Shown here in pieces: positions 14,074 through 16,112 of a stretch of 25,092 bases of DNA; positions within the stretch are counted from its first letter, which is position 1, and each line of letters starts with the position of its first letter. Made by a program: the position numbers and the translations under genes. The stretch comes from a virus: the IMG/VR virus record IMGVR_UViG_3300008448_000583, positions 1-25,092 of that record; one strand, given 5' to 3'. Under the pieces are notes generated by a model. That model was not told the origin of the DNA and did not search any database. It worked only from the letters and a program-made list of their open reading frames with translations.

Positions 14074-14479
14074 AAAGTTAATGCAAGCAAGATTAGAGTT
14101 ACAAGAAACAAACTTAACTAAATCTGGACACAATAAATTTGCTGGATATAAGTATTTTGAACTGGGTGACTTTTTGCCTGCTATTCAAAAAATATTTGCA
14201 AAATTAAACATCTGTGGTATTGTGTCTTTTGGTCAAGAGTTAGCAACATTAACTATTACAGATTTAGAAGACGGATCTCAAACACAAATTACTAGCCCTA
14301 TGTCTACAGCAGCACTTAAGGGCTGTCATGAAGTGCAGAATCTAGGTGCTGTGCAAACATATATCCGTAGATACTTATGGGTAGCTGCTCTTGAGATTGT
14401 TGAGCATGACGTAGTAGATGCAAGTGCTGGTGCTGCAACATTTAAGATGAAAGATACTAAAGCAGAGGACTTTATCTAA
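14060..14479 (+). CDS. erf: Erf-family single-strand annealing protein
   Basis: A 139-residue annealing protein of the ERF superfamily, which pairs complementary single strands in phage recombination and genome circularisation. The signature is NKFAGYKYFELGDFLPAIQK early and, later, GCHEVQNLGAVQTYIRRYLW with the conserved Gln/Tyr/Arg-Arg segment. The start used has GGAGG eight bases upstream. An in-frame ATG at 13976 also has GGGAG seven bases upstream and would add a Met/Gln-rich leader of 28 residues, so the true N-terminus is uncertain. The next gene encodes the matching exonuclease. Confidence 0.85.
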   Translation: MGVYKKLMQARLELQETNLTKSGHNKFAGYKYFELGDFLPAIQKIFAKLNICGIVSFGQELATLTITDLEDGSQTQITSPMSTAALKGCHEVQNLGAVQTYIRRYLWVAALEIVEHDVVDASAGAATFKMKDTKAEDFI

Positions 14480-15081
14480 TGGAACAACGTTCAGAAGAGT
14501 GGTTTCAGGCACGACTAGGCAAAGTTACAGCTAGTCGTGTAGCTGATGTATTAGCCAAGATTAAAAGTGGTGAGTCTGCATCTAGACGTAACTACAAGAT
14601 TCAGCTAGTAAGTGAAAGACTTACAGGTGAAAAGCAAGAAACATATATTAACCAAGCGATGCAAGATGGAATTGACAGGGAATTCTATGCTAGGGAAAGA
14701 TATGTGCAACAACATGGTGAAGTGGAAGAAGTAGGATTTATTCAGCATCCTACTTTGGAAGCTGGTGCTAGTCCAGATGGTTTAGTAGGTGATGATGGAT
14801 TGATTGAGATTAAATGCCCATTAGGCACTACACATACTGAAACATTAATGACACAAGAAGTTCCGAGCAAGTATATACCACAAATACAATTTCAGCTACT
14901 ATGTACAGGTCGGAAGTGGTGTGACTTTATAAGTTACAATCCTATGTTTCCAGAGCATTTGCAATTATTTGTGAAACGTGTGGATGCCGACCCTGTATAC
15001 CAAAAAGAACTAGAAGTAGAAGTAGGTAAGTTTTTAGATGAGGTGAATGATGTAATCAACAAACTTAAGGAGATTGAATGA
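14479..15081 (+). CDS. YqaJ-type recombination exonuclease
   Basis: A 200-residue lambda-exonuclease-like nuclease that resects double-stranded DNA to make substrate for the annealing protein. The N-terminal RSEEWFQARLGKVTASRVAD is the YqaJ signature. The catalytic core is GASPDGLVGDDGLIEIKCP with Asp100, Glu110 and Lys112; an upstream Glu in GIDREFYARERY completes the site. YIPQIQFQLLCTGRKWCDFI also fits the family. It starts on the Erf stop (TAATG). Together they form a two-component recombination system like Red alpha/beta. Confidence 0.9.
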   Translation: MEQRSEEWFQARLGKVTASRVADVLAKIKSGESASRRNYKIQLVSERLTGEKQETYINQAMQDGIDREFYARERYVQQHGEVEEVGFIQHPTLEAGASPDGLVGDDGLIEIKCPLGTTHTETLMTQEVPSKYIPQIQFQLLCTGRKWCDFISYNPMFPEHLQLFVKRVDADPVYQKELEVEVGKFLDEVNDVINKLKEIE

Positions 15082-15305: not shown

Positions 15306-15542
15306 ATGGCAGAACAAAAGTACGATAATACAAACACCTTTACATTGTTTAAGAACGATCAAGGTGACAACCCTAAAAAACCAAACTACACTGGAATTTT
15401 AAATTCTGAAGGAGTTGAGTTTAGACTTGCTGGTTGGATTCGTGAGGGTAAAAACGGTAAGTTTATTAGCGGAACTATTCAGTTAAAAGACGGTGATATT
15501 AAACCTAAAAAACAAGAGGTAGATGAGGATGTTCCTTTCTAG
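15306..15542 (+). CDS. Small SSB-like protein
   Basis: A 78-residue protein ending in the acidic tip DEDVPF, which mimics the DDDIPF tail by which bacterial SSB recruits partner proteins. The body (TFTLFKNDQGDNPKKPNYTG, then EFRLAGWIREGKNGKFISGT) has the beta-rich, aromatic make-up of a short OB fold. It is much shorter than cellular SSB, with almost no linker. An excellent AAGGAG precedes the ATG. It follows the Erf and YqaJ genes and probably coats single strands in the same pathway. A hairpin overlaps its stop codon. Confidence 0.7.
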   Translation: MAEQKYDNTNTFTLFKNDQGDNPKKPNYTGILNSEGVEFRLAGWIREGKNGKFISGTIQLKDGDIKPKKQEVDEDVPF

Positions 15543-15552
15543 GAACACCCTC
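15525..15552. terminator. Hairpin between SSB-like gene and pqqA
   Basis: GAGG-A-TGTTCCT (15525-15536) pairs with AGGAACA-C-CCTC (15541-15552) with one mismatch and a TTCT loop. It covers the stop codon of the SSB-like gene and lies 10 bases beyond the end of the opposing pqqA. There is no T tract on either side, so termination in either direction is plausible but unproven. Confidence 0.45.
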
Positions 15553-15561
15553 TCTAAAGCA

Positions 15562-15633
15562 TTACTTATTCATTACATACATTGTAACTTCAAAGCCAAA
15601 ACGCATTTCAGTAACAGCTGGTTTTGTCCACAT
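15562..15633 (-). CDS. pqqA: PqqA, peptide precursor of pyrroloquinoline quinone
   Basis: A 23-codon gene on the strand opposite its neighbours. The peptide reads MWTKPAVTEMRFGFEVTMY and ends VMNK, which matches proteobacterial PqqA (MWTKPxxTxxRxGFEVTMY pattern). The two residues that become PQQ, Glu15 and Tyr19 in E-V-T-M-Y, have the exact spacing. In the known pathway PqqD presents the peptide, the radical-SAM enzyme PqqE crosslinks Glu to Tyr, and proteases and PqqB/PqqC finish the cofactor used by methanol and glucose dehydrogenases. AAGGA lies eight bases before the ATG. No other pqq gene is in the window, so host enzymes must process the peptide. No clear sigma-70 promoter is seen upstream; a small CAAGC/GCTTG hairpin lies at 15655-15670. 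The 207-base gap between rightward genes holds only this gene and its flanks. Confidence 0.9.
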   Translation of the reverse strand: MWTKPAVTEMRFGFEVTMYVMNK

Positions 15634-15749
15634 GATTATGTCCTTATTAAAATCCAAGCGAATTAGCTTGTATAGATATTGTGACCAATAATCTGTGTAA
15701 TAGCAAGTAATAAACATTTATTTTACCCTAATGAAAATACGGAGACATT

Positions 15750-16112
15750 ATGGATTATGATGACGATATAGTGGATTATGATGACAAAAGCCAACTGTCA
15801 GAGCTTCCAGAAGCCAAGCTATTATTGGCTATGCTATACCAGACTATTAATGACGCACTTTATGAACCTAAAAAAGTAAGACAAAATGCTACAAGTAGAT
15901 CTGTAACAAGTTTAAAGTCTAAAAATAAAATAGCTTTACGAGACAGGATTGATGCTATACAATGGTTATTTGATGATAATGATGTTTATGATTTATGTTG
16001 TGAATTAGCTGGCATGAGTAAATATAATATCAGAGAAATGATTATTCAGAAACTTGGTGCAGCACAGATACTCCCTTTAGTACATGGATTCTATCAACCA
16101 AATGGAGATTAA
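15750..16112 (+). CDS. Unknown acidic protein
   Basis: A 120-residue protein with a very acidic N-terminus (MDYDDDIVDYDDKSQLSELP), a basic middle (KKVRQNATSRSVTSLKSKNK) and a helical C-terminal half with ALRDRIDAIQWLFDDNDVYD. CGGAG is eight bases before the ATG. The alternating charge suggests a nucleic-acid or protein-binding adaptor, and the C-terminal half could be a helix-turn-helix-like bundle. No known family. It begins the second part of the rightward unit, after pqqA. Confidence 0.7.
   Translation: MDYDDDIVDYDDKSQLSELPEAKLLLAMLYQTINDALYEPKKVRQNATSRSVTSLKSKNKIALRDRIDAIQWLFDDNDVYDLCCELAGMSKYNIREMIIQKLGAAQILPLVHGFYQPNGD

Follow-up and report, generated by a model that had tools for sequence, protein, structure and literature searches.

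A 23-codon pqqA gene conserved in a phage group and shared with cultured phages of methylotrophic bacteria

Why would a phage carry a gene for the precursor peptide of the cofactor PQQ and none of the genes for the enzymes that process it? The question is raised by a 23-codon frame, pqqA, at 15562..15633 on the minus strand of the window, the whole stretch of DNA analysed here. The window corresponds to a virus record of 25,092 bases which includes genes for a portal (SU10-type), TerL, ERF, a YqaJ exonuclease, SSB and an endolysin; pqqA sits in a genuine tailed phage genome. Read on the minus strand from 15633 to 15562, the frame translates into a 23 aa peptide, MWTKPAVTEMRFGFEVTMYVMNK, followed by a stop. 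The peptide scores above the curated thresholds of the two PqqA models over their full length, the equivalog TIGR02107 (model positions 1-21 of 21, 2.2e-12, 46.5 bits, cut-off 20) and PF08042 (1-19 of 19, 2.3e-11, 43.8 bits, cut-off 21.1), a similarity well beyond chance; a search of PHROGs v4 gave no matching family. It carries Glu15 and Tyr19 in the spacing E-V-T-x-Y, whose Glu and Tyr are the pair joined in PqqA by a carbon-carbon crosslink. A Shine-Dalgarno sequence, AAGGA (15641..15645, minus strand), precedes the frame, and the same kind of site precedes nearly all phage pqqA copies. The original prediction, made from the sequence alone, of a pqqA frame with an AAGGA site lying opposite to all its neighbours is confirmed: pqqA is on the minus strand and the plus strand encodes the exonuclease, ssb, the gene at 15750 and the endolysin. 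Judged by its translation, its Pfam and TIGRFAM matches and the conservation described below, the element is very probably a functional phage pqqA.

The convergent neighbour is ssb (15306..15542, plus strand), encoding a single-strand DNA-binding protein (phrog_18154, 4.3e-13) and separated from pqqA by 19 bases, tail to tail. A strong hairpin 3′ of pqqA (15520..15557, minus strand; z = -4.58, calculated over a full 156 nt) overlaps the 3′ end of ssb and is probably a shared transcript end of the two genes. The divergent neighbour (15750..16112, plus strand) has no function assigned. The YqaJ-type exonuclease gene (14479..15081, plus strand) provides a marker independent of pqqA.

How widespread is the gene? 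A tblastn search of 50,697 phage records gave PqqA matches in the genomes of nine isolated phages of Methylophilales/Methylophilaceae and in one spring-water phage. The isolates MEP431-434 and Venkman EXVC038S are listed in the taxonomy and did not turn up in these searches. The cultured carriers, Venkman, P19250A, MEP301, MEP401/402 and four Melnitz phages, belong to three unrelated types (siphovirus-like, Zobellviridae and T4-like), in agreement with the proposed association with methylotrophs, and we infer that the host of the window phage is also a member of the Methylophilaceae. At the position of pqqA the annotations of the nine cultured genomes show either no feature or an unnamed antisense frame and none names pqqA. 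That so small a gene would be easy to miss had been anticipated, and its 23 codons are probably the reason. A scan of IMG/VR with degenerate DNA patterns for the PqqA peptide identified at least 120 carrier contigs, a lower bound. The alphaproteobacterial peptide type, GMEVT, matched a single contig, in which the filter recognised no PqqA. Several viral contigs include PqqA peptides unlike the Methylophilaceae type (L011, L020, L025, L031, L032, L035, L082, L084, L086, L107 and L116). Phage structural genes lie beside pqqA in several of these, which are probably phages of other PQQ-making hosts.

From these sequence data, it is quite probable that the phage supplies PqqA to the PQQ enzymes of its host so that methanol dehydrogenase keeps working, and the interpretation in the original prediction is supported to that extent. 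We infer transcription, crosslinking and an effect on methanol oxidation during infection as follows. In an infected Methylophilaceae cell, a host-type promoter would drive transcription of phage pqqA; host PqqD would bind the phage peptide and host PqqE would crosslink Glu15 to Tyr19, and host PqqB and PqqC would then finish the crosslinked peptide into PQQ for methanol dehydrogenase. The phage copy would in this way replace pqqA once host transcription fails, a gene which the hosts themselves amplify. PQQ made from the phage peptide could instead serve another quinoprotein dehydrogenase, or redox protection, rather than methanol oxidation. Some of the unlike viral peptides (L011, L035, L032), which may come from phages of other PQQ makers, would agree with such a use, but all cultured carriers infect Methylophilales/Methylophilaceae, for which methanol oxidation is the defining catabolism, and we consider this alternative improbable.

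Supply of the precursor by the phage presupposes the remaining enzymes in the host. Searches by tblastn with pqqB, C, D and E revealed none in the window or in 373 viral loci searched over their local flanks; identical queries gave matches in 21 of 120 host loci. Methylophilaceae PqqC and PqqE queries found no match in any true phage record, and the claim that only the precursor is encoded therefore stands. Matches to records named Acinetobacter phage MD-2021a were rejected as phage, being host-type pqqBCDE sequence: CAKLQF020000010.1 and CAKLQH020000055.1 have ppk in addition to a pqqBCDE operon and resemble bacterial chromosomal DNA. The pqqB-E neighbourhood that is a common feature of PqqA is thus absent from the window and the viral loci, but it is not required, since many host copies also stand alone. 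Indeed, pqqA is present in all 100 Methylophilaceae genomes searched, in 1-12 copies (median 4), many of them located apart from pqqBCDE. PqqA is consumed at one peptide per PQQ, so that production from pqqA, unlike that from the other pqq genes, would have to rise with demand, and the multiple host copies fit such a peptide. A methanol-grown PQQ producer has likewise been described with five pqqA copies (PMC9851590). Between tandem host pqqA genes (L144:2550-2641 and L141) we also noted, by eye, a frame of about 30 aa which ends in CxCPxCSxKS.

Is the phage peptide itself maintained? The exonuclease, which lies about 500 bases from pqqA and was chosen without reference to it, was used as bait for related phages. 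Among the best 80 of 312 relatives by exonuclease, 76 had enough DNA and four were cut by contig ends; pqqA occurs at the same place and on the same strand in all 76, 282-620 nt downstream of the exonuclease and on the opposite strand to it. In the window group (41 distinct pqqA genes) dS is 0.55, dN 0.045 and dN/dS 0.082, with synonymous changes at many codons and Glu15 and Tyr19 invariant in 41/41. The prediction had proposed looking for pqqA at the corresponding position in related phages and named absence from them with random codon changes as the contrary outcome; what is found is retention with mostly synonymous change. Phage pqqA is under strong purifying selection and is core to its phage group. 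As a homologue of a host metabolic gene which is kept by selection, it is a candidate auxiliary metabolic gene. One window relative (L321) has an altered PqqA core, MWTTPAATEIRLGMEITAYVMNR. These data also bear on the idea of a decoy, in which the phage peptide would occupy PqqD/PqqE and shut down PQQ synthesis to stop host metabolism. The precursor alone is carried, and in excess it could overwhelm a radical-SAM enzyme that turns over slowly, but loss of the Glu or the Tyr would be expected of a decoy, whereas purifying selection maintains the whole peptide, crosslink residues included, and many phage PqqA peptides are identical to those of hosts. A decoy is slightly less probable than use of the PQQ outside methanol oxidation. 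With so many peptides identical in phage and host, an effect of dosage alone, or of regulatory titration, would also be compatible with the data.

The DNA upstream of pqqA resembles that of the host genes. An operator matrix with the consensus TMATGATTTTMMKKAG, learned exclusively from DNA upstream of host pqqA, gives matches of ≥8 bits ahead of 74 of 116 phage pqqA genes and 92 of 100 host pqqA genes, compared to 3.1% of other phage genes. The distance from operator to best -10 box peaks at 37 or 59-61 nt in phages and at 60-61 nt in hosts. Many operator-pattern matches in host genomes lie about 115 nt upstream of listed pqqA genes (in G002, for example, five of six). The link between TMATGATTTTMMKKAG and host pqqA can be seen in host loci L129-L248 and in genomes G002, G004 and G023. 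In the window, a putative host-type operator, TCCGTATTTTCATTAGG, is located at 15727..15743 (minus strand), with an intact right half and a degenerate left half; the best match (11.0 bits, 15729-15745) overlaps this aligned position. It was found with a 150-nt search range, lies outside a 100-nt range, and shares sequence with the ribosome-binding site from which the divergent gene at 15750 is read. A likely -10 box, CACAAT (15678..15683, minus strand), would lie 60 nt from where the operator starts, a spacing shared with host pqqA promoters, and a 5′ leader stem-loop, CAAGC-TAATTC-GCTTG (15655..15670, minus strand), occurs just before the ribosome-binding site. Rfam returned nothing at the window; hairpins resembling its leader, with other arm sequences, can be recognised by eye in many phage copies. 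From sequence, phage pqqA looks wired under the control switch of the host itself.

Such an arrangement might suggest that the regulatory DNA or RNA is the selected element, the operator or leader titrating a host pqqA regulator and the coding part being secondary. A host-type operator precedes most phage copies and a structured leader is common to some phage copies and host pqqA, but the dN/dS ratio reveals selection on the protein, and the phage copies parsed from the first IMG/VR scan are all full open reading frames, and a ribosome-binding site precedes almost every one of them. We regard this explanation as slightly less probable again than a decoy.

The gene is not a fixture of every phage group. 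With the Venkman exonuclease, pqqA was found in 31 of 34 relatives with room at ≥62% identity and in none of 43 more distant ones, which probably belong to other hosts. It lies alongside the Melnitz neighbour gene in 8 of 80 loci and alongside the MEP401 neighbour gene in 3 of 12, and either the place or the gene therefore varies in those groups. In Melnitz-like phages about 148 bases including pqqA are swapped for 12 bases with the flanks intact, and in seven loci with conserved flanks (L359-L361, L422, L423, L427 and L428) pqqA was not found at the expected place, although it may be located elsewhere in these genomes. The gene is therefore not essential everywhere, and these natural variants constitute a useful natural experiment. 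Clean gain and loss of a small cassette is what passive host DNA might show, but carriage by unrelated phage types, the 76/76 retention and the strong purifying selection strongly contradict this and exclude a chance frame, leaving a functionless origin a negligible probability.

A phage PqqA has been reported previously. The T4-like methylophage contig VP_266 from Lake Baikal encodes PqqA together with methanol dehydrogenase, and the authors proposed that its PqqA acts as an auxiliary metabolic gene in methanol oxidation (PMC7678222). According to that paper, P19250A has none of these genes; our tblastn search shows that P19250A does carry pqqA and corrects this point for pqqA. VP_266 resembles the present phages in being a Methylophilaceae phage with PqqA and differs in that methanol dehydrogenase is also on the contig; wide spread, regulation and a solo precursor are not described there. 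With one such contig already known, the present work is a wide extension of an existing idea. The main texts of open-licence papers on cultured OM43 phages (PMC9004378, PMC10580990, PMC8024684, PMC8163748) do not report a phage pqqA, and in a sediment study from 2026 viral pqqA is grouped with phosphorus genes (PMC13188868).

The closest cellular counterparts are bacterial PqqA (TIGR02107/PF08042) and the orphan copies of Methylophilaceae. The phage gene is a full-length match with the same crosslink residues, and the orphan copies share a near-identical peptide and the same kind of operator, many of them also standing apart from pqqBCDE. The phage gene differs in being phage-borne with no pqqB-E found alongside in the viral loci examined, and often in having a single operator at 37 nt spacing rather than 60. 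A second comparison is with cyanophages, whose psbA replaces the fast-consumed D1 protein. By analogy, pqqA would, like psbA/psbD, be a phage copy of the component of the host energy system that is consumed most rapidly, although psbA/psbD encode reaction-centre proteins and pqqA a 23-aa cofactor precursor. We lean, with some reserve, towards a broader view: an unannotated pqqA cassette in unrelated methylotroph-phage families would be wired into the host pqqA control circuit through an operator linked to pqqA and, in some phages, a structured leader RNA not described before, making a stoichiometrically consumed, ribosomally made cofactor precursor the methylotroph counterpart of cyanophage psbA. 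This widens the auxiliary metabolic gene idea to a consumable precursor peptide and exposes the operator and leader RNA linked to pqqA in the hosts. In coastal and lake water, Methylophilaceae play an important part in the oxidation of methanol. Phage pqqA suggests that the host energy supply is kept running during infection and, if most Methylophilaceae phages carry it, infected cells may go on oxidising methanol. This role could be tested directly in systems already in culture (Venkman and Melnitz on H5P1, MEP301, MEP401); the OM43 medium as published includes 1 nM PQQ (PMC9004378), an addition that could hide an effect.

The leader RNA referred to above is of a second type, distinct from that of the window, and is found in 14 phage loci (L040, L042, L043, L047, L050, L071, L074, L075, L076, L090, L093, L122, L125 and L323) and in pelagic hosts; it was also noted in loci L502-L512. 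Its pattern, CUCAA-helix-GAC...CUC-helix-GANCUG, lies directly before pqqA in pelagic Methylophilaceae and some phages. Pairing in the 6-bp helix reaches 97%, and 26 two-sided changes occur in it, compared to 7.5 in shuffles; an H-type pseudoknot reading was replaced by this simple covarying helix. No Rfam family reached its gathering score for the pqqA leaders, freshwater-2 giving weak matches in one host locus, far below that score. A model of the second leader has strong matches (≥38 bits) in 11 of 100 family genomes and two weak ones, and each strong match directly precedes a tandem pqqA pair. We consider it a candidate new cis-regulatory RNA. On one phage contig, L076:4506-4572 matches the ROSE_3 RNA thermometer at gathering score.
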